From Thaumarchaeota archaeon casp-thauma3 (GTDB taxonomy: Archaea; Thermoproteota; Nitrososphaeria; Nitrososphaerales; Nitrosopumilaceae), in NCBI GenBank assembly GCA_001510275.1, contig LFEY01000003.1, forward strand, positions 1 to 40,059: a stretch of 40,059 nt of DNA. Reading direction: 5' to 3'. The translations under genes and the position numbers were made by a program. Below are positions 4,031 through 39,661 of this stretch, one piece after another. The notes beneath the pieces were generated by a model, which was not told the DNA's origin, searched no databases, and was given only the letters and a program-made list of their open reading frames with translations. Position 1 is the stretch's first letter. Every line of letters begins with the position of its first letter.

Positions 4031-6199
4031 TTATCCGTAGAATGTTTTATCCCCTGTCTTAGGTACAACGTTAGATATACTTTCTCTTACAGTGTTGTAC
4101 CATTGATCAACTTCTTTAGTAATAGATGGTCTAACTCGCTTCAAACTATTTGCAAAATCTTGGCTTGAAATTTTTAATGAATTGTTTCTCATTGCTTGAA
4201 CTGCTGCCTCTCTACAGAGTGCTGCTAAATCTGCTCCAGTATAGTTTTGTGTTGCTACTGCAATTTCTTGTAATTTTACATCATTTACCAATGGCATCTT
4301 TTTTGTTAGAATCTTGATAATCTCTAATCGCCCTTTTTCATCTGGGGGTTCTACATATAGAACTAAATCTAGTCTTCCCGTTCTTAACAAGGAATTATCT
4401 AAAACATCTGGTCTATTTGTAATTCCAATTACTACTACTCGTGAAGAAATACCCTCTTCAATTTCTGTTAGTAATTGACTTAGAACCGTTTCACTTACTC
4501 CTCCTTCTCCTGATTTGTGACGTGCTAGTGAGTCTAGTTCGTCAAAAATTATTACACATGGTGATGCTGCTTTTGCTTTTCTAAATATTTCTCTAACAGC
4601 TTTTTCAGATTCACCAATCCATTTTGAAAGGATTTCAGGACCTCTAACCAAAATCATATTTGCACCAGTTTCCGTTGCAAGTGCTCGTCCAAGAAGTGTT
4701 TTTCCACATCCTGGGGGACCGTAAATTAAAGCTCCTCTTGGTGGTCTAATGCCCATTTTTGTAAATTTGCTTGGCTCTTTCATTGCTGTAATGAGATTAT
4801 CTGTTAATGCTTTTTTGACATCATCTAATCCTCCAACGTCTTTCCACCATACTTTTGGTCTTTCAACATAAAATTCCCTCATTGCTGTAGGAACAACCTC
4901 GTGCATTGCATCGTAAAAATCGATTAATTTGATCTGCATTGATTGTAATACTTCAGAAGGAATCTTTTCTGTTTCAAGATCTATTTCTGGCAGGTATCTC
5001 CTAATTGATTTCATTGCAGCTTCTCTACAAAGCGATTTGATGTCTGCACCTGTGTATCCGTGTAACTCTGATGACAAGTCTTTCAGATCTACATCATCAC
5101 TTACTGGCATTCCTCTAGTGTGAATTAAAAGAATCTCCAGTCTCCCATCCTCGTTAGGTACAGATATCTCAAATTCTCTATCAAATCTACCTGGCCTTCT
5201 AAGTGCTGGATCAACACTTTCTGGTCTATTTGTAGCTCCAAGTACAATTACATTTCCTCTGTCATTAAGGCCATCCATTAATGCTAATAATTGAGCAACA
5301 ACTCTTTTTTCAACATCCCCATAAGCCTCTTCTCTTTTTGGTGCAATTGCATCAATTTCGTCAATGAAAATAATACTTGGAGAGTTGTCTTTAGCTTCTT
5401 TGAAAATATCTCTAATCTTTGCTTCTGTTTCCCCATAATACTTGTTCATGATCTCTGGACCATTAATGAGAAACATGTTAGCTTCTGATTCACTGGCCAT
5501 AACTTTTGCAAGTAATGTCTTTCCACATCCTGGTGGACCGTAAAGTAAAATTCCACTATGCGGATCAATTCCTAATCTTGCAAACAACTCAGGATGTTTT
5601 AATGGAAGCTCTACAATCTCTCTCATTGCTTTTACTTCCTGCCTAAGTCCTCCAACTTCTTCGTATGTTACTCTAACTTTTCTATCCACTGAAACTTCTG
5701 TTGAAATGTTGAGATTTGTAGAACGATCTATCTTAACTACTCCCTTTGGAGTGGTCTTTGTAATTTTAAAGTCCATAGAATTTCCTAATATCATTACAGA
5801 AATTTCATCACCATGAGTAATTGGTAATCCCTTCAATCTGTTTTTAACAAAATCCGTAAACTCTTTGTCTATTGTAACAGAATCATTTACCGGTATTAAG
5901 GAAATTGTTTTTGCAATCTTTGATGCTACTTTTCTAATTTTTACAATATCATTTAGTGATCCCCCAACATTTTTTCTTGTTTGCCCATCAATGCGTATAA
6001 TGTCTGGAAATTTTTCATCTTCATCAACTGGCCAAACAACTGCACAACTAGATCTTGAACCCATCACTTCAATAATGTCTCCTGGGGTAACTTTGAGGAA
6101 ATCCATGGCTTCAGGTCCAATTCTGGCCCGTTTTTTACCTACATCCCTTTGCTTTGCTTCTCCAATCCGCATCTGCAAAGGCTCTTCTTTGCGTACCAA
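4031..6199 (-). CDS. CDC48/VCP-type AAA+ ATPase
   Basis: This 722-residue protein has the full p97/CDC48 layout: an N-terminal double-psi barrel and CDC48 domain 2 (about residues 8-175), then two AAA+ modules. Walker A GPPGCGKT occurs at 221-228 and 494-501. Walker B reads IIFIDEID around 276-283 in the first module and IIFDELD around 550 in the second. Sensor and arginine-finger segments (GATNRPESVDPALRRPGRFD and the matching second set) are intact. Archaeal CDC48 unfolds proteins, feeding the proteasome. The start is a TTG giving MVRKEEPLQMRIGEAKQ, which matches the usual N-terminus of the family; an ATG at residue 10 is the alternative. It is followed two bases later by the small winged-helix gene and preceded at eight bases by aEF1-beta. 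Confidence 0.95.
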   Translation of the reverse strand: MVRKEEPLQMRIGEAKQRDVGKKRARIGPEAMDFLKVTPGDIIEVMGSRSSCAVVWPVDEDEKFPDIIRIDGQTRKNVGGSLNDIVKIRKVASKIAKTISLIPVNDSVTIDKEFTDFVKNRLKGLPITHGDEISVMILGNSMDFKITKTTPKGVVKIDRSTNLNISTEVSVDRKVRVTYEEVGGLRQEVKAMREIVELPLKHPELFARLGIDPHSGILLYGPPGCGKTLLAKVMASESEANMFLINGPEIMNKYYGETEAKIRDIFKEAKDNSPSIIFIDEIDAIAPKREEAYGDVEKRVVAQLLALMDGLNDRGNVIVLGATNRPESVDPALRRPGRFDREFEISVPNEDGRLEILLIHTRGMPVSDDVDLKDLSSELHGYTGADIKSLCREAAMKSIRRYLPEIDLETEKIPSEVLQSMQIKLIDFYDAMHEVVPTAMREFYVERPKVWWKDVGGLDDVKKALTDNLITAMKEPSKFTKMGIRPPRGALIYGPPGCGKTLLGRALATETGANMILVRGPEILSKWIGESEKAVREIFRKAKAASPCVIIFDELDSLARHKSGEGGVSETVLSQLLTEIEEGISSRVVVIGITNRPDVLDNSLLRTGRLDLVLYVEPPDEKGRLEIIKILTKKMPLVNDVKLQEIAVATQNYTGADLAALCREAAVQAMRNNSLKISSQDFANSLKRVRPSITKEVDQWYNTVRESISNVVPKTGDKTFYG

Positions 6200-23752: not shown

Positions 23753-24595
23753 TTATTTGTCCAATTGTGTATCAATGATTTTTTTGAAACTATCAAATGG
23801 TTGGGCTCCCTTTAATTCAACATATCCTATCTCATCATTTCCTATAAAGAATCCAGGTGTTCCTGAAACTCCATAATCTCTTCCATCATCAAGATCATGT
23901 TTAATCTCTTCAATGTATTTTCCATTGATAAGACACGAATCAAATGTCTCTTGTTCTAATTGGATTTCTGTAGCATATTGACTAAACAAAGATAATGCAT
24001 CTGCAGTCTCTTGGTTGTTCCATTCATTTTGGTTGTCAAATAACATGTCATGCATCTCTTTGAATTTATCTTGTTCATTTGCACATTCTGCTGCAACAGA
24101 TGCAGGTACTGCATTTGGATGAATACTTTGAATTGGGAAATCTCTAAAAACAAGTTTAACTTTTCCTTGTTCTATGTATTGATCAAGAATTAATGGTAGT
24201 GTTTGAATATGGAATCTTGCACAAAATGGACATTGAAAATCTGAAAATTCAATTATTGTGATTGGTGCATCTAGATTTCCAATAACTGGATCATTATCTA
24301 CTGAAATTTTTACTGGGGGTTTTGGTTGATCTGTAGGTAATTGATTTTGTAACATTTTAAGTTCTAATTTGGCAACTGCCTCATCTAATTCCTCTTGGGA
24401 AATTTGGTTTGAGTTTAAAATTGATGTATATGATCCTGCAAAAAATGCAGCAACTACTATTACTACAATTAACCCTATAATTAATCCGTTAAATGTTGAT
24501 TTTTTTACAGATACTTTTTCATTATTATTTTCATTATTATTTTCATTATTATTTTCATTATTATTTTCAATTAAATCAAAATCCTCAGAACTCAT
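23753..24595 (-). CDS. Membrane-anchored DsbA-like thiol-disulfide oxidoreductase
   Basis: From the ATG at 24595 the protein has 280 residues. An N-terminal cytoplasmic stretch of four ENNN repeats precedes a transmembrane anchor (about residues 35-57), then a DsbA-type thioredoxin fold with FSDFQCPFCARFH. The active site is CPFC, followed by a helical insertion and the cis-Pro strand GVSGTPGFFIGN. It is expected to form or exchange disulfides outside the cell. A TTG at 24610 would add five residues. The Asn/Glu repeat is encoded by a perfect 12-base tandem repeat, so its length may vary between strains. Confidence 0.88.
   Translation of the reverse strand: MSSEDFDLIENNNENNNENNNENNNEKVSVKKSTFNGLIIGLIVVIVVAAFFAGSYTSILNSNQISQEELDEAVAKLELKMLQNQLPTDQPKPPVKISVDNDPVIGNLDAPITIIEFSDFQCPFCARFHIQTLPLILDQYIEQGKVKLVFRDFPIQSIHPNAVPASVAAECANEQDKFKEMHDMLFDNQNEWNNQETADALSLFSQYATEIQLEQETFDSCLINGKYIEEIKHDLDDGRDYGVSGTPGFFIGNDEIGYVELKGAQPFDSFKKIIDTQLDK
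24521..24568. repeat. 12-base tandem repeat, four perfect copies
   Basis: The unit ATTATTATTTTC is repeated four times without error. It lies inside the DsbA-like gene and encodes Glu-Asn-Asn-Asn four times in its cytoplasmic N-terminal tail. The unit is a multiple of three, so gain or loss of copies keeps the frame. Confidence 0.9.
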
Positions 24596-24670
24596 TTGAA
24601 CTTGTTCCAAAGTCTAGTATACTTATTCGTATTGCCATATCTTACAATATTCATTATTGAGAAATTTAAA

Positions 24671-31611: not shown

Positions 31612-32472
31612 ATGAAAGTGAATCTTATGGGAAATAATACAATTTTGATATTAGTGTCAATAATGGTTTTTTTTGCGGGATTCGGAGTTGCATCTGTGGT
31701 ATACTACAATCCATCAAATGCACCTCTTTTGGGTCATGGAATGACAGGTTTGATGACTAGTCCTGAAGATATGAACCAAATGATGGAAGACCCAAATTTT
31801 AGAAATCAATGGATGAATTTTATGATTCAAGATACTGAACACATGAAACAATGGATGCAAGATGATCCTCAACATGTATCCCTAATGATAGAAAAAATGA
31901 AAGTGGATCATGATTTTATGATGGGTATGACTATGATGATGTTAGAGGATCCAGGACTTAGGCTACAAATGATTGGTCATATGACAGAAAACCCAGAGGC
32001 TATGCAACAGATGATGAATATGATAGATGGAAATATGATGATGGGTTCTGGAATGATAAGTCAACAAATGCAAGGACAAAATGAAAGTACACAAACTGAA
32101 ACAACTTCCTCATACGTTAAGATGGTTGATGGTGTTCAGGTGGTAACAATAAATGCAAAAGAGTTCAAATTTACTCCTTCTGAACTAAACATCAGTGCAG
32201 GAAAAACCAAATTTGTTTTGATAAACGATGGAGTAGCTGAACATGAATTGGCCGTCTATGATGCTTCTAAACAAGACATAATCTACAAAGCTGAGCTAGT
32301 AGAAGATGAGGAAACAATAGAGAAAAACGTTCTCTTTGAGATAGAGGAAGTATATGGTGGTGAATTTGGTGAAAGTGAAGTTATGGATCTTACAGAAGGA
32401 TCATATGTGATAGCATGTCACGTATCAGGACACTATGATGCAGGAATGAAAGGTACTTTGATTATCTCATAA
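31612..32472 (+). CDS. Met-rich membrane-anchored cupredoxin
   Basis: This 286-residue protein has an N-terminal signal anchor (about residues 9-31). A long methionine-rich region follows (about 40-150; more than 30 Met, in clusters such as MGMTMMMLEDPG and MMNMIDGNMMMG) that also carries His. The end is a cupredoxin-like domain (about 165-286) with FKFTPSELNISAGKTKF, a His in EHELAVYD and the ACHVSGHYDAGM loop giving Cys, His, His and Met. Met-rich segments bind copper(I), so periplasmic-side copper capture or resistance is likely. The stop overlaps the next small gene (TAATG). It lies 82 bases after the left direct repeat and heads the metal island. Confidence 0.85.
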   Translation: MKVNLMGNNTILILVSIMVFFAGFGVASVVYYNPSNAPLLGHGMTGLMTSPEDMNQMMEDPNFRNQWMNFMIQDTEHMKQWMQDDPQHVSLMIEKMKVDHDFMMGMTMMMLEDPGLRLQMIGHMTENPEAMQQMMNMIDGNMMMGSGMISQQMQGQNESTQTETTSSYVKMVDGVQVVTINAKEFKFTPSELNISAGKTKFVLINDGVAEHELAVYDASKQDIIYKAELVEDEETIEKNVLFEIEEVYGGEFGESEVMDLTEGSYVIACHVSGHYDAGMKGTLIIS

Positions 32473-32606
32473 TGATTGAGAAAAAAGAATTTTGCAAATA
32501 TTGTCCTTTTCATAATAATGTAGAACTCGTTCATACTGAATTACAAGATGGTACATCTAAGGACTATTGTCCAAAATGCCAGGAATTATTTGGAGAAAAA
32601 ATATGA
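32472..32606 (+). CDS. 44-residue Cys-pair protein
   Basis: This 44-residue protein has two CxxC pairs: KEFCKYCPFHN near the start and KDYCPKCQELF near the end. It would form a small zinc ribbon or bind copper(I). The ATG shares a base with the stop of the Met-rich cupredoxin (TAATG), so the two genes are translationally coupled. The opening KxFCxYCP motif recurs in the 33-residue peptide at 35558. Confidence 0.75.
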   Translation: MIEKKEFCKYCPFHNNVELVHTELQDGTSKDYCPKCQELFGEKI

Positions 32607-32632
32607 AAGTAATTGCTAGATTATTGATAGTT

Positions 32633-32648
32633 CTTTACATTTGTAAAG
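32633..32648. promoter_or_regulatory. Palindromic operator CTTTACA-TT-TGTAAAG
   Basis: This is a perfect inverted repeat with seven-base arms and a two-base spacer. It lies 37 bases before the ATG of the HTH-TRASH regulator, just upstream of a GATAATAAATA TATA-like stretch. The same core TTTACA-N2-TGTAAA occurs at 34524-34541, between the divergent CcdA operon and the propeller gene. It is a likely binding site of the regulator itself. Confidence 0.65.
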
Positions 32649-32684
32649 TTGAGATAATAAATACAGAAAGACCACAAAATATGC

Positions 32685-33122
32685 ATGCCTTACGAGCTAG
32701 ATGATATAGACATTGGAATAGTAACTTCACTTCAACAAGATGGAAGAAAATCCTTTAGACAGATTGCCAGAGAACTTGATATCAGCACTCCCACAATACA
32801 AGCAAGGTATCAAAGGTTAGTCAATATTGGATTGATAAAATCAGTCTCACCTGTGATTGATTCAACTAATGTTGTAGATGAACAAAAAGAACAATTACGA
32901 ACATGTGATTGTAATGAATCCCCTGAAATAAATCTAAAATCAGGCATGTCTGTAAAAATGAAGTGTGATTTATGTGATGGAATAATAGGTGATAAACCTC
33001 ATGTTTTAAAATTTGCAAGTTTTGAGAGATTCTTTTGTTGCAATACGTGCAAGACACAATTCAAGGAAAAGAACAAGGGAAGAATAGAATCAATAATAGA
33101 AAAAGCAAAAGAAGAAAATTGA
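32685..33122 (+). CDS. AsnC/Lrp-type HTH regulator with metal-sensing TRASH domain
   Basis: The 145-residue protein joins an AsnC-type helix-turn-helix (residues 5-60; IDIGIVTSLQQDGRKSFRQI then ARELDISTPTIQARYQRL) to a TRASH domain (about residues 90-132; CDLCDGIIGDKPHVLKF then FFCCNTCKTQFKE). A further CDC pair sits at about 79-81. In archaea this architecture is known from copper regulators of the CopT/CopR kind, where the TRASH cysteines sense the metal. It has its own palindromic operator upstream. The neighbouring copper-binding and thiol genes make copper the likely signal; mercury or another soft metal remains possible. Confidence 0.85.
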   Translation: MPYELDDIDIGIVTSLQQDGRKSFRQIARELDISTPTIQARYQRLVNIGLIKSVSPVIDSTNVVDEQKEQLRTCDCNESPEINLKSGMSVKMKCDLCDGIIGDKPHVLKFASFERFFCCNTCKTQFKEKNKGRIESIIEKAKEEN

Positions 33123-33147
33123 TTTAGCAAAAGTAATTTTTTAGATA

Positions 33148-33375
33148 CTATGATAATTTTTCTAGTAATTCTTGTTTTTTTGGAATACCTGTAAATTCTA
33201 ATTTATCATCAATGACTATTGCAGGTGCAGTAAAGATAGGATATTTTTCTAAATACTCTGGCTTTTTAGTAACATCTATGATATCATATGATATGTTTAG
33301 TTCATCTAACATATTTTCTACCACCTTACAGTTCCCACATGAAGGAGTTGTCAAAATTTCTATTTTATGATTCAT
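33148..33375 (-). CDS. Small thioredoxin/glutaredoxin-like protein
   Basis: This 75-residue protein is a minimal thioredoxin fold with active site TTPSCGNCKVVENML (CGNC) near the N-terminus, then the FTAPAIVID cis-proline strand. It resembles archaeal MTH895-type small thioredoxins. The start is the ATG at 33375, which overlaps the end of the YHS gene. A longer frame to 33489 lies within the YHS gene in another frame and is rejected. It is last in the CcdA-YHS-thioredoxin operon; electrons from CcdA could reach it or partner proteins. Confidence 0.88.
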   Translation of the reverse strand: MNHKIEILTTPSCGNCKVVENMLDELNISYDIIDVTKKPEYLEKYPIFTAPAIVIDDKLEFTGIPKKQELLEKLS

Positions 33376-33505
33376 TTTCAAATTGCTCTGGATTATTCTC
33401 AAATGCCCATCTACAGCTAGCACAACAGAATCGATATTCCTTTCCTTTGTGCAATAATACTTCTCCTTTTTCACCAACATCCATTCCACAAACAGGATCT
33501 TTCAT
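33365..33505 (-). CDS. 46-residue YHS/TRASH-like metal-binding protein
   Basis: This 46-residue protein is a YHS domain: MKDPVCGMDVGEKG at the start and FCCASCRWAFENNPEQF at the end. YHS proteins (also found at the ends of copper ATPases) bind heavy metals through these cysteines. Its ATG overlaps the TGA stop of the CcdA gene (ATGA), and its own end overlaps the thioredoxin start, so the three genes are read as one tightly coupled operon. Confidence 0.85.
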   Translation of the reverse strand: MKDPVCGMDVGEKGEVLLHKGKEYRFCCASCRWAFENNPEQFENES

Positions 33506-34488
33506 GTCTTTACCTTTCTTAACCTACGAACAGATAGTACAAAAATTGGACTTGCTATTAGTATTGTTAACAAAACTGTGTAAAAATTCTTGAAATCTTC
33601 TACATCATTATGTCCATGTTCATCCATTCCAAATTCTGATGGAATTGGAGTCATCTCAACTAAATCATTCCATCCTTTGTGGATGAATGTTTCCTCATAC
33701 CATTCATGACCCTCTGGCAAACCATTGATTATCAAAAGTGCACCAATAATTATCAACATCCATCCTGATGCTCGCTCTATAGATTCTCTTTTTACTGTGA
33801 GACTTTTTGTTGCGTTGATTCCAATTACTGCAAGTACTGACATTAGAATTAATGGTATTGCCCTACCTACACCATGTACAACACCTAATGATGCTCCAAT
33901 CTCAATACTACCAGTCCCTGCGATGTATATGAGAAGCCAATAAAATAATGGGTTAGGACAACCAACTCCTGCATTTCCCAACAACAATCCCATGAAAAAC
34001 GATTTTGTATACTCGCCACGTTTTTGAATAAACTTTGGAGTTCCTGAATATGATGGCATTTTCAAAGAAATTATTTTTAATTGTGATAATCCGAAAACAA
34101 AAGCTACAAGTCCTGCAATCAAAAACATTAGTGTGGATACTTGATCTAATGATGCACTTTTTCCTATAACTGCAATCGCTATACCATAAGATGCAATAGT
34201 TATCGTTAATCCCAAACCAAAAAGCAATGCCATGGATAATCCCTTTTTGTATCCTTGCCCCATACTCATTGGAACTATGATGAACACAAGAGGTAGAGTA
34301 CATGGCAAAATAATCATGGACAAACCTGCAACATACGCAATCATTAACCATGAAAGAAATGTTGTATTGTCTTTTACGTCAGTTGAATAATTTGTTGTAA
34401 ATGAAAATATGATTCCAATAAAGATTAATGAAAATAATACAAATGTAATAATCACCATTGATTTTTTTGCAAGTACCTGTGAAGACAT
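33502..34488 (-). CDS. CcdA/DsbD-family membrane electron-transfer protein
   Basis: The 328-residue protein has a signal anchor (residues 10-31) and about seven further helices. The paired cysteines that carry electrons through the membrane in this family are visible as LPCTLPL (near residue 63) and GVGCPNPLF (near residue 179). It has an outer C-terminal loop with His and acidic residues (DEHGHNDVEDF) before a last helix. It would pass reducing power to the outer side, for thiol repair of copper-stressed proteins or cytochrome/cupredoxin maturation. It is the first gene of the operon with YHS and thioredoxin genes, divergent from the propeller gene, with a palindromic operator 36 bases upstream. 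Confidence 0.88.
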   Translation of the reverse strand: MSSQVLAKKSMVIITFVLFSLIFIGIIFSFTTNYSTDVKDNTTFLSWLMIAYVAGLSMIILPCTLPLVFIIVPMSMGQGYKKGLSMALLFGLGLTITIASYGIAIAVIGKSASLDQVSTLMFLIAGLVAFVFGLSQLKIISLKMPSYSGTPKFIQKRGEYTKSFFMGLLLGNAGVGCPNPLFYWLLIYIAGTGSIEIGASLGVVHGVGRAIPLILMSVLAVIGINATKSLTVKRESIERASGWMLIIIGALLIINGLPEGHEWYEETFIHKGWNDLVEMTPIPSEFGMDEHGHNDVEDFKNFYTVLLTILIASPIFVLSVRRLRKVKT

Positions 34489-34523
34489 GTCTTGTATATG
34501 CTACTTTGATACTTAACCAGTAA

Positions 34524-34541
34524 ACTTTACAACTGTAAAGT
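34524..34541. promoter_or_regulatory. Palindromic operator ACTTTACA-AC-TGTAAAGT
   Basis: Perfect eight-base arms around a two-base spacer, in the 103-base gap between the divergent CcdA operon (start 34488) and propeller gene (start 34592). The core equals that at 32633-32648. One site here could control both directions. Confidence 0.65.
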
Positions 34542-34559
34542 ACCTATTTTTAATAGGTA
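34541..34559. promoter_or_regulatory. Second inverted repeat TACCTATT-N3-AATAGGTA beside the operator
   Basis: Perfect eight-base arms with a three-base spacer (TTT), sharing one base with the TTTACA operator. It lies 32 bases before the propeller ATG, where a TATA box would be expected (TTTTTAATAG), so it may be a second regulator site overlapping the promoter. Confidence 0.45.
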
Positions 34560-34591
34560 TTTCTCTGAGTAATTCAGATTAGGGTGAAAAT

Positions 34592-35557
34592 ATGAAAAAA
34601 TCCAAATATGATAAATCCAATTCAAAGAAATTATTTGTGTCGAGTTTTGTAATTATAATAATTGTAGTTGTGGTAATATTTCTGATTGGTATATCTATAA
34701 TTTCAGAGCCTTCTCCAAGTGTAGATAATTCATCATCAGATAATTCCAAAATAATTGATTGGCGTCACGTTCATGGATTAGGACTAGATCCTGCGGATCA
34801 TTCCATTTTGTACATTGCTACACATGGGGATTTCTATCAAAGTATTAGCGGTGCTCTTCCCATCAAAGTAGACAAAGTAAAAGCAGACTATATGGCATTT
34901 AACGCACCTCCAGTCTCAGGATACCCGCTATATGCAAGTGGACATCCGTCAACTGGAGGAAATACTGGGTTGATAAAAAGCAATGATGGAGGGATAATTT
35001 GGGAACATGTTTCTAATGTAATAGAGCCACCAGTTGATTTTCATGCAATGGCAGTAAGCAAACAAAATCCAGAAACAATAATTGGTTTTGATAGTGGAGC
35101 AAGAGGATTATTCAAAACTGTTGACGCTGGAAAAACTTGGGAAACATTAGAACCTCCTCAATATGAGTATATTTCAGCATTAGCATTTTCTCCTATGGAT
35201 TCAGAATTAATTTTTGCAGGAACTGCAAATGGAATTTACAAATCAAATAATGGTGGAAAGACTTGGATACATCTTGGTGCGTATCAGGGACTGTCTGTGT
35301 TTGCATTAGCATTTGATGATAAAGGCAGGTTATTTGCATCAATCAAAACCTTTGGTGTTGTACAGTCAGATGATTTTGGCGAATCGTGGGAAAGTCTGAT
35401 ACATACTGATCTTACAGTATCAAGCATTACAGCTGATTCTGAAAATAATTATCTCTATGTTGGGGGTTATGTTCCTGATGGATACCAAGAAGTCTACAAA
35501 ATTTCATACGATACAGGTTCTTATGAATTGATTGGAACTAACAAGGGGTTAAAATAA
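34592..35557 (+). CDS. Membrane-anchored Asp-box (BNR/sialidase-like) beta-propeller
   Basis: This 321-residue protein has an N-terminal anchor (about residues 14-37) and a propeller with Asp boxes of the S-x-D-x-G-x-x-W type: SNDGGIIWE, TVDAGKTWE, SNNGGKTWI and SDDFGESWE. It opens with WRHVHGLGLDPADHS, a segment typical of the F510_1955-type sialidase-like proteins, which are often found near metal-resistance genes. No glycosidase function should be assumed. It is divergent from the CcdA operon and shares the operator region. Its TAA is followed directly by the TTG of a Cys-rich peptide. Confidence 0.8.
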   Translation: MKKSKYDKSNSKKLFVSSFVIIIIVVVVIFLIGISIISEPSPSVDNSSSDNSKIIDWRHVHGLGLDPADHSILYIATHGDFYQSISGALPIKVDKVKADYMAFNAPPVSGYPLYASGHPSTGGNTGLIKSNDGGIIWEHVSNVIEPPVDFHAMAVSKQNPETIIGFDSGARGLFKTVDAGKTWETLEPPQYEYISALAFSPMDSELIFAGTANGIYKSNNGGKTWIHLGAYQGLSVFALAFDDKGRLFASIKTFGVVQSDDFGESWESLIHTDLTVSSITADSENNYLYVGGYVPDGYQEVYKISYDTGSYELIGTNKGLK

Positions 35558-35659
35558 TTGAAGCAGGAAAAGCAATTTTGTGGTTATTGTCCTGAAGACA
35601 AATGTATACTAGATTGTCAAATTTGTAATCCTAATCTAGGAAAAGGTTGTAATTGTTAG
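35558..35659 (+). CDS. 33-residue peptide with seven cysteines (metallothionein-like)
   Basis: A TTG immediately after the propeller stop opens 33 codons ending in TAG. Seven of 33 residues are cysteine, at positions 8, 11, 16, 20, 23, 31 and 33 (CGYCPEDKCILDCQICN, then GCNC). The density and CxxC/CxC spacing suggest binding of soft metals such as copper(I), in the manner of a small metallothionein. The opening KQFCGYCP matches KEFCKYCP in the 44-residue protein at 32472. The lack of an ATG makes the start tentative, but the frame is tightly packed behind the propeller gene. Confidence 0.6.
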   Translation: MKQEKQFCGYCPEDKCILDCQICNPNLGKGCNC

Positions 35660-35672
35660 AGATAATTGAATC

Positions 35673-35822
35673 ATGAAACTAACTTGTGTACATTGTGGAA
35701 AATCATTTGAAGGGGACAATACCAAATTTTGCTCTCAAGGTTGTCGAGATTCGTACATTATTGCTATTGACAAAAGAACTAGAGAGCAGTCAAGGACGAT
35801 TCAAGTCACACTACCAATATAA
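35673..35822 (+). CDS. 49-residue zinc-finger-like protein
   Basis: An ATG 14 bases after the Cys-rich peptide opens 49 codons. CVHCGKSFEGDNTKFCSQGC provides four cysteines in a C-x2-C...C-x3-C pattern reminiscent of TRASH/MYM-type fingers, and the tail is basic (DKRTREQSRTIQV). It may bind metal or nucleic acid. It is the last gene of the propeller transcript. Confidence 0.65.
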   Translation: MKLTCVHCGKSFEGDNTKFCSQGCRDSYIIAIDKRTREQSRTIQVTLPI

Positions 35823-37004: not shown

Positions 37005-38501
37005 TTGAATACTAGTATCGTGGAAATACATCCTGATGAAATAATAAAATCAAAAAGCAATCCACTAGAATTATTCTATTCTTCAATGAGGGCTGAAGCC
37101 ACAAAAACTGATTATGACAGAAAGCTTCGCAAAGTTCTCTGTGAATTTTTTAAACCAATTCTCAAAGGCGATCCAGAACTGGTAAAAAGAGAACAATCTG
37201 AACCTAAAATCAAGAAAAAAGGTGTAAAACGAAAGTTTTCTGATGCTGACTTTGAGGTAAGGGCAGCAGAGTTTGTTAAAAGAGCAAAAGAAGACACTGA
37301 TTGGGCTGAAAATGTTTTGATGAAGCTTGGTGAAAAGTTCAAGGAGAGAGCAAATCTCTCAAAAACTGATTCTAACTATATCAACCCAGTATCGTTAAAG
37401 AATTACTTTGTTCCTGTTCAGAAATTACTTGAAATGAATCGTGTGAATCTTGCTTGGAAAATGATTCGCTCCACTTTCCCTGAAATTGATGGTAAAGATG
37501 ACACTCGAGAATACACCTATGATGAAATCAGAAAGATGCTAAATCACTGTAAGGTAATGGATAAAGTTCTGGTTTTACTTGCATCCTCATCTGGAATTAG
37601 AGCAGGTGCATTTGCATTCCCAATGGCTGGTGAAAATACCATCTCATTGACTGCGTCATCAATAGGACCAAAGATGATGAATATGGACGTGCCTCCAATG
37701 GCAAGAACCCATACTATTGCATCTGGAAGTCTGATGACATTTGAACAAGATCCTGAAAATGATTTTGGATCAAGAACATATGATTTGCCAGTGTATGTGC
37801 TAAAACAACAGCAATCAAAAACATTAGATGGTTCAGAACCAGGAAAACAAATCCTGGTAACTCTTGCAACAACATCAGATAAAATTGTGTCCGGTGAACC
37901 TACAACACTAGTACTAACCATTACACAACCCGATGGCGAGATGATCACTCATCCTGATGCATTAATCTCTGTAAGAAAAGGATTCTACAAAGTTTCTGAA
38001 TCTGCAGAACCAGGGGATCCAATGATGCCAATGAATGGAGCATATCATGGTCATGTGGGACAAATGTCATACACTGCAGCATTTCCAAATGCTGGAAATT
38101 ATGTTGTAAATGTGGATCTTAACAGTTTACCTGTATCAAACTACATTTTTGGACAGACAAGTGCTAGATTCAATGTACTTGTAATGGATCCAAATGGTGA
38201 ATCATCAATATCGACTCAATCACAGACTAAAAATACTGTGACTATTGTTGGATTAGAATCACCATTTTATCAACCAAACAACATCAAAGTATCCAAGGGA
38301 ACAACTTTGACATTTGACAATGTAGATGGAAACTTTCACACTGTAACAAGTGGAAATGCAGCATCTGGCCCCAATGGAAATTTTGATAGTGGATTGATTA
38401 AAGCAGGAGAAACATTTGATCTAAATCTTGACAAATCAGGAACGTTTGAGTATTTCTGTACAATACACACAAACATGGTTGGCACAATTACTGTGTCATA
38501 A
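37005..38501 (+). CDS. Chimera: tyrosine-recombinase N-terminus fused in frame to a blue-copper protein
   Basis: The 498-residue frame starts at a TTG. Residues 1-202 look like the core-binding region and the start of the catalytic domain of an archaeal tyrosine recombinase (SNPLELFYSSMRAEATKTDY near the start; VLVLLASSSGIRAGA with the first catalytic Arg at residue 199). The integrase then stops: the rest of the catalytic domain (His-x-x-Arg and Tyr) is missing. From about residue 203 (FAFPMAGENTISL) it is a secreted cupredoxin protein without its signal peptide, with a beta-rich middle and a C-terminal blue-copper domain (FHTVTSG, then FEYFCTIHTNM supplying Cys, His and Met). The product could neither recombine DNA nor be exported. 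It is a deletion join or assembly error. Confidence 0.75.
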   Translation: MNTSIVEIHPDEIIKSKSNPLELFYSSMRAEATKTDYDRKLRKVLCEFFKPILKGDPELVKREQSEPKIKKKGVKRKFSDADFEVRAAEFVKRAKEDTDWAENVLMKLGEKFKERANLSKTDSNYINPVSLKNYFVPVQKLLEMNRVNLAWKMIRSTFPEIDGKDDTREYTYDEIRKMLNHCKVMDKVLVLLASSSGIRAGAFAFPMAGENTISLTASSIGPKMMNMDVPPMARTHTIASGSLMTFEQDPENDFGSRTYDLPVYVLKQQQSKTLDGSEPGKQILVTLATTSDKIVSGEPTTLVLTITQPDGEMITHPDALISVRKGFYKVSESAEPGDPMMPMNGAYHGHVGQMSYTAAFPNAGNYVVNVDLNSLPVSNYIFGQTSARFNVLVMDPNGESSISTQSQTKNTVTIVGLESPFYQPNNIKVSKGTTLTFDNVDGNFHTVTSGNAASGPNGNFDSGLIKAGETFDLNLDKSGTFEYFCTIHTNMVGTITVS

Positions 38502-39192: not shown

Positions 39193-39235
39193 TTTGGACA
39201 AATCCTTTTAATTAAAAATTTTGGAAATAGGTATA

Positions 39236-39661
39236 ATGTTGCCTGAAACCAAAATGAAAGGAACTTTTTTGCATGACATTACTCATTGGGGTATTCGTGC
39301 TTCGATTGGTGTCATATTCATTGTTCATAGTTTAAAGAAATTTGATCCTAGCTGGGAAGCATGGCTGGTTGAAACTGCAGGTCTCCCACTAGAAATGAGA
39401 TTACCAATAGCATTAGCAGAATTTATTGGTGGAATATTTCTCATAACTGGAATATTTACTAGAATCACTAGTTCTGTGTTTTCTATAATTATACTTGGAG
39501 CAATATTTCATATTCGATGGGAGAATGGATTTTTTGTTTCTCAAGGTGGATGGGAGTGGGATCTTGTAATGCTTGCAGCTGTTCTGTCAATTATTGCTGC
39601 AGGTCCAGGTAGAATATCTATTGCAAGTCTAATTAAGAAATTACCTAAGTTTGCACAGTAA
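39236..39661 (+). CDS. DoxX-family membrane protein
   Basis: From the ATG at 39236 this is a 141-residue protein with four helices, typical of DoxX/DoxD-like proteins: HWGIRASIGVIFIVHSLKKF, then LPIALAEFIGGIFLITGIFTRI, IIILGAIFHIRWENGFF and the last helix near WEWDLVMLAAVLSIIAAGPG. The family occurs with quinone or thiol-linked redox systems, but its own activity is poorly defined. A TTG five codons upstream (39221) is also possible. It is intact, unlike its neighbours. The helix pair AEFIGGIFLITG resembles the out-of-frame fragment at the left window edge. Confidence 0.85.
   Translation: MLPETKMKGTFLHDITHWGIRASIGVIFIVHSLKKFDPSWEAWLVETAGLPLEMRLPIALAEFIGGIFLITGIFTRITSSVFSIIILGAIFHIRWENGFFVSQGGWEWDLVMLAAVLSIIAAGPGRISIASLIKKLPKFAQ

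Follow-up and report, generated by a model that had tools for sequence, protein, structure and literature searches.

What holds together the copper- and thiol-related genes at positions 31612-35822 of contig LFEY01000003.1 (GenBank assembly GCA_001510275.1), and does a single regulator govern them? The contig belongs to Thaumarchaeota archaeon casp-thauma3, an ammonia-oxidising archaeon with a draft genome of 1.22 Mb (31 contigs, 96.6% complete); its relatives in our searches are Nitrosopumilus and allied genera. The window is the whole stretch that we analysed, 40,059 nucleotides, positions 1 to 40,059 of the forward strand. A first-pass annotation, made from the letters alone, had described in this island a Met-rich cupredoxin, a Cys-pair protein, an AsnC/TRASH regulator, an overlapping CcdA-YHS-thioredoxin operon, a membrane propeller and two tiny Cys-rich proteins. 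Coordinates and domain matches confirm that all of these genes are present where the annotation put them. Absent from that annotation were two palindromes, at 32633-32648 and 34525-34540. With these, a CopR-type copper regulon becomes the very probable reading of the island, its core genes sharing one operator. The features on which this reading turns are the following, BRE denoting the B recognition element and HTH a helix-turn-helix.

32633-32648, no strand: operator 1, CTTTACATTTGTAAAG, directly upstream of the BRE/TATA of the regulator gene, ending 36 bases before the start codon
32656-32663, plus strand: TATA box of the regulator gene, AATAAATA, 8 bases past operator 1, a layout common to the orthologues
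32685-33122, plus strand: AsnC-type HTH and TRASH regulator of 145 residues, proposed CopR-like copper sensor, identified by domain matches and orthologues
33148-33375, minus strand: small thioredoxin (CGNC) lacking a signal peptide and proposed to donate electrons to CcdA from the cytoplasm
33365-33505, minus strand: 46-residue YHS-domain protein without signal peptide, proposed copper-binding small protein
33502-34488, minus strand: CcdA/DsbD-type membrane electron carrier (DsbD_TM)
34509-34516, minus strand: TATA-like box of the CcdA operon
34525-34540, no strand: operator 2, CTTTACAACTGTAAAG, shared by the divergent promoters of CcdA and the propeller, with about 37 bp to the CcdA start and 51 bp to the propeller start
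34547-34555, plus strand: TATA-like box of the propeller gene
34592-35557, plus strand: membrane-anchored six-bladed propeller related to F510_1955, with invariant residues H59, H61, H78, D99, M101, H118, D149 and H151

The regulator matches HTH_AsnC (PF13404, E=3e-13) and Arc_trans_TRASH (PF08394, E=2e-9), both above the Pfam cut-off, and at least 95% of 43 orthologues retain the C-x2-C and FCC-x2-C motifs of its TRASH domain. The perfect palindrome CTTTACANNTGTAAAG occurs exactly twice in the whole 1.22-Mb genome, both times inside the island, with a TATA box about 6-10 bases beyond each copy. A semi-palindromic operator directly upstream of BRE/TATA is found both at the regulator's own promoter and at the target promoters, and the spacing is that of archaeal activators binding just upstream of BRE. 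Two other candidate sites in the genome look like chance occurrences: the single near-match, CTTTACCAGTGTAAAG, inside a leuB-like gene (C6:9029), and a two-mismatch site at the 3' end of another gene (C1:38351). Next to operator 2, at 34542-34558, is a second inverted repeat, ACCTATTTTTAATAGGT, which takes in part of the propeller gene's TATA-like box or all of it.

We surveyed the operator in 1.04 Mb of related loci, which were chosen by homology and in part overlap. The 14-mer TTTACANNTGTAAA has 111 perfect copies there, compared with a single copy of the reversed control. It lies 31-40 bp upstream of the gene in 32 of 44 regulator orthologues, and precedes 17 of 42 CcdA genes, at 36-41 bp in 16 of them. 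Fifteen of 28 propeller genes have it, as against 2.2% of random positions in the same loci. The reversed-pattern and background controls rule out a chance origin. In 478 kb of bacterial propeller loci the operator was not found.

Among the papers searched, none was found to describe the motif in archaea, and the sole match was a paper on bacterial CopY: in Gram-positive bacteria, CopY's cop box is identical to the operator core, TACANNTGTA (PMC7253601). The operator might then be owned by another regulator, such as a CopY/BlaI-like winged-helix protein, with the TRASH protein merely one of the targets. The host genome does hold a sub-threshold match to PF03965 (20.8 bits against a cut-off of 22.6), but no PF03965 protein above the cut-off. 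Moreover, operator and TRASH regulator co-occur across genomes and adjoin at a fixed spacing, the usual sign of autoregulation, and we regard ownership by another protein as very improbable.

Co-occurrence was counted over 151 genomes of the family, 61 with the regulator and 90 without; these genomes are related to one another, so the p-values are optimistic. We counted 46 16-mer sites in the 61 regulator genomes and 6 in the other 90 (reversed control: 4 and 6), an association with an odds ratio (OR) of 14.5 (p=7e-10). The propeller is found in 27 of the 61 and 3 of the 90 genomes (OR 23). The strongest partner of the regulator genome-wide is a copper ATPase, present in 39 of 61 genomes with the regulator and 5 of 90 without (OR 30, p=4e-15). 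Either the ATPase or CcdA is present in 59 of the 61 regulator genomes, and where one of the two occurs the other tends to be missing (OR 0.4, p=0.03).

Clustering of the genes downstream of the operator yielded the regulator, CcdA, the propeller, a P1B-type ATPase with a CPC motif, DsbA-like thioredoxins, Met-rich proteins and cupredoxins; Pfam matches added HtrA, a Ferric_reduct-domain membrane protein, DoxX and small YHS/TRASH proteins. The ATPase is divergent, with HMA domains (MHCAGC) besides the CPC motif, and is a target at 17 loci, 12 of them motif-checked. The pattern extends to other families of the order and two further genomes of the same genus: 17 of 20 operator loci lie near a TRASH regulator, a 47-residue YHS gene or a CPC ATPase, and several of these ATPases have an N-terminal YHS domain. 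Two genes of the window belong to target types and have no operator there: a DoxX-like gene at 39221-39661, whose homologues stand under the operator in L055, L049, L057 and L206, and a DsbA-like thioredoxin gene (23753-24610, FSDFQCPFC) of the type targeted in Nitrosopumilus.

The presence of several DsbA-like thioredoxins, the HtrA protease and the Ferric_reduct-domain protein among the Nitrosopumilus targets would also fit a general regulon for envelope thiol or oxidative/nitrosative stress, in which the TRASH cysteines sense oxidants and not copper. We hold this to be quite unlikely: the regulator's strongest genome-wide partner is a copper ATPase, and the targets also extend to small YHS proteins, cupredoxins and Met-rich proteins. 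Copper (or silver) is the most likely signal, because the likeness of the site to those of CopR and CopY comes together with the ATPase link. The earlier choice of copper as the metal stands on the same ATPase evidence, the operator being common to the CPC-type pumps and the regulator co-occurring with them.

The common operator likewise upholds the first-pass claim that the core genes form one unit regulated by the TRASH protein. As a fixed module, the exact gene set was not recovered: the genes need not adjoin elsewhere. Relatives keep the CcdA-YHS-thioredoxin operon and the regulator/operator pair, whereas the cupredoxin and Cys-pair genes occur in few of them. The independent scattering of homologues that was to speak against the proposal is thus seen in part, and the propeller in particular often lies elsewhere in the genome, with the operator in about half of the cases. 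This scattering does not break the system, because the dispersed genes have the operator in common.

Within the redox operon, genes overlap by 4 nt and 11 nt. CcdA belongs to its family by both redox cysteines, which are present in transmembrane helices (PC63TLP and GC177PNP). The thioredoxin and the YHS protein should be cytoplasmic, since neither has a signal peptide. Small YHS genes similar to that of the window have the operator in other families of ammonia-oxidising archaea (AOA), and because YHS genes and domains recur at operator loci of the order, the window protein is related to a typical component of the copper regulon. At locus L040, a 34-residue thioredoxin remnant (4874-4975, 91% identity) stands beside the regulator in a genome without a CcdA match; the redox operon there appears to be decaying or cut.

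The host seems to run this regulon without a pump. The TIGR01511 model of copper ATPases, which finds 14 of 14 control genomes, has no match in the host genome and none in three closed, single-contig genomes of the same genus (G046, G059 and G092), all of which have the regulator. In those loci of these three and of the host that were read, the operator stands mainly before genes for extracytoplasmic thiol and copper handling. Judged by genome content, envelope handling appears to replace efflux in genomes without the pump.

The full explanation that we favour, and consider probable, is a copper regulon of a CopR-like AsnC/TRASH regulator. A dimer or oligomer of the regulator would occupy CTTTACANNTGTAAAG immediately ahead of BRE/TATA in two places, the regulator's own promoter and the promoter region that CcdA and the propeller share. 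Copper on the TRASH cysteines (C-x2-C ... FCC-x2-C) would alter transcription, most likely switching it on at copper excess. The cytoplasmic thioredoxin and the small YHS protein would pass electrons, possibly also Cu+, to CcdA, which would bring reducing power to the outer face and so repair copper-damaged thiols. Outside the membrane, the anchored propeller and the Met-rich cupredoxin may bind or oxidise copper. The same operator would drive a copper-export ATPase in related archaea, with envelope handling in its place in the host. The putative capture of copper outside and the putative keeping of outer thiols in reduced form, as first proposed, fit the anatomy.

Several observations weigh against the copper regulon. 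In the related loci, the exact operator is absent from 25 of 42 CcdA genes and 13 of 28 propeller genes, and across the 151 genomes the regulator shows no association with CcdA (p=0.41). Four regulator orthologues (L044, L045, L050 and L053) have neither the operator nor the usual neighbours. In the window, no recognisable operator precedes the cupredoxin or the Cys-pair gene, and the host's missing ATPase could lie in a gap of the 31-contig, 96.6% complete draft. The direction of control is also at issue: in Nitrososphaera viennensis under copper limitation a DsbD protein, CopC/D and CopA2 are upregulated (PMC7785015), and a 'sialidase', probably the propeller orthologue, is drawn among the upregulated clusters in Fig. 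4 of that study. These data may hint at an acquisition regulon, switched on at copper scarcity, in which CcdA and the propeller deliver scavenged copper to ammonia monooxygenase and the many cupredoxins. The DsbD of N. maritimus did not respond to copper limitation in that comparison, however, and the motif reported for the N. viennensis genes, TTCSGSMTTTGWACYANT, differs from the operator (PMC7785015). The operator is moreover common to P1B CPC ATPases, which are normally exporters, and the bacterial relatives of the propeller lie in resistance clusters. We consider acquisition unlikely and retain the copper-excess regulon.

The four orthologues without the operator, all from genus g17, have another common upstream sequence, ATGTTACGCGCAACA, perhaps a site of another kind or else a stretch of an upstream gene. 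Two other contigs carry taxonomic labels at odds with their content: L117 (JAJDED010000042.1, Planctomycetota by deposit) encodes a propeller with 73% identity, and L139 (JAJCYI010000193.1, Saprospiraceae by deposit) has island genes with 82-93% identity together with the regulator and the operator. Both are very probably mis-binned thaumarchaeal DNA.

The propeller raises the question of what such a protein does in a copper regulon. The AlphaFold model has one N-terminal transmembrane helix and six blades (mean predicted local distance difference test, pLDDT, 88). The protein matches F510_1955 (NF045728) with E=3e-47 over profile positions 5-229 of 246, its 161.2 bits falling short of the curated cut-off of 175. 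We treat it as a divergent archaeal relative of this 'glycosylhydrolase' family because the invariant residues are shared despite the score. Among relatives from archaea and bacteria, the most distant of them at 26% identity, H61, H78, D99, M101, H118, D149 and H151 never vary and H59 hardly does. In a larger set of 41 relatives all eight are invariant, D99-M101 and D149-H151 partly by construction, as they lie within peptides used to fetch part of that set; the first set is free of this. The strand positions in the model place these residues where the innermost strands of blades 1-3 begin and where the neighbouring strands end, so they should point towards each other at one side of the pore.

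A sialidase or glycosidase function was rejected. None of the window protein's arginines is conserved in at least 60% of the 41 relatives, leaving no sialidase Arg triad, and the closest solved folds (GH74, DAIP, sortilin and Ycf48 propellers) are alike by general fold only. On plasmids, bacterial F510_1955 propellers adjoin multicopper oxidases, DUF305 proteins, resistance-nodulation-division (RND) pumps and copper ATPases. A CPC ATPase lies within 6 kb in 24 of 42 bacterial propeller loci, mostly cyanobacterial and hence not independent. For the propeller we consider a copper-site protein likelier than a glycosidase, and a copper-binding or copper-oxidising role is our best guess. A mercury system was also rejected: merA is near one plasmid relative, and none was recognised in the archaeal loci.

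The remaining genes of the island flank this core.

31612-32472, plus strand: Met-rich cupredoxin anchored in the membrane at its N-terminus, in which a Met-rich linker leads to the type-1 copper domain, without an operator upstream
32472-32606, plus strand: 44-residue protein (CysP44) with two Cys pairs, overlapping the cupredoxin stop by one base
35558-35659, plus strand: 33-residue Cys microprotein, CGYCPEDxCLLDCxICNP, with a TTG start directly after the propeller stop
35673-35822, plus strand: 49-residue FCS/treble-clef-like protein, barely conserved, of uncertain membership

Residues 30-165 of the cupredoxin include 28 Met, and its type-1 site is complete (C269-x4-H-x4-M); a 52% homologue in L064 is operator-controlled by position. 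Homologues of CysP44 (60-82%) occur in four loci, adjoining a cupredoxin in L117 and L129 and lying within a CcdA locus in L102. Neighbourhood, recurrence in a few relatives and the L064 homologue suggest that the two genes belong to the regulon. Of the two tiny Cys-rich proteins first annotated, the microprotein is a real gene, because its motif is kept in 16 homologous matches at other loci and several relatives have the TTG start joined to the propeller stop in the same way. The 49-residue protein has a weak status, since its only two matches, at 33%, are to one 32-residue open reading frame, apparently from the same contig fetched twice. Further along, a single open frame at 37005-38501 joins the N-terminal part of a tyrosine recombinase-like protein (to 'LLASSSGIRAGAF') to a secreted cupredoxin-type protein, which suggests either a gene fusion or the scar of an integration.

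A wider reading, tentative and somewhat short of probable, would make this an order-wide copper regulon of AOA acting through TTTACANNTGTAAA, rewired from efflux to surface thiol repair and copper capture in pumpless marine lineages. The F510_1955 propeller, which bears five His and one Met on blades 1-3, would then be a new kind of copper-site protein, and its glycosidase label in bacteria a general misnomer. From operator and regulator together, target genes can be predicted for genomes of the whole order. Genome content suggests that marine members without the pump depend on a thiol/copper system of the envelope, a point of relevance to the role of copper as a niche factor in ocean nitrification. 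For a widespread bacterial family now annotated as glycosyl hydrolases, the analysis offers a putative copper role and a candidate metal site.

How does the island compare with known systems? CopY has neither an AsnC HTH nor a TRASH domain. The operator core TACANNTGTA is what links it to the cop box of Gram-positive CopY/CopR (PMC7253601); the regulator families are unrelated. The likeness could be chance, given how simple the palindrome is and that binding to this core is also stated for other repressors. With ScsABCD of Salmonella and Proteus there is a likeness at the level of function, copper tolerance by a DsbD-type carrier with thioredoxin-fold partners; the regulator differs, and CcdA, YHS and thioredoxin are separate proteins here in place of ScsB. 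The propeller has the same invariant His/Met/Asp set as F510_1955 (NF045728), from which it differs as an archaeal branch in which no sialidase residues were seen. The CopT/CopA/CopM systems of Sulfolobus and Nitrososphaera also place a TRASH regulator beside a CPC ATPase, and in other AOA families we found the operator before the regulator, small YHS genes and YHS-CopA; in the host and three closed relatives of the same genus no efflux pump was found, and envelope redox genes stand in its place.

The closest counterpart is CopR of Pyrococcus furiosus (PF0739), an AsnC-type HTH and TRASH protein that acts on several genes in one region and responds to Cu and Ag. Its site, TTNNCAWWWTGNNAA, is a TTNNCA-TGNNAA semi-palindrome directly upstream of BRE; CopR is required for copper tolerance and activates copA upon copper shock (PMC7830388). 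The island shares the domains, the identical half-sites and the position upstream of BRE. It differs in an operator spacer of 2 nt instead of 3, in a regulator without a His-rich tail, and in its targets, which in the host are CcdA-YHS-thioredoxin and the propeller, with no CopA found. We describe the regulator as CopR-like, and not the island as a classical copR-copA locus, because the linkage to a P1B-type copper ATPase that marks CopR and CopT regulators was not found in the host, while it is present in many of its relatives.

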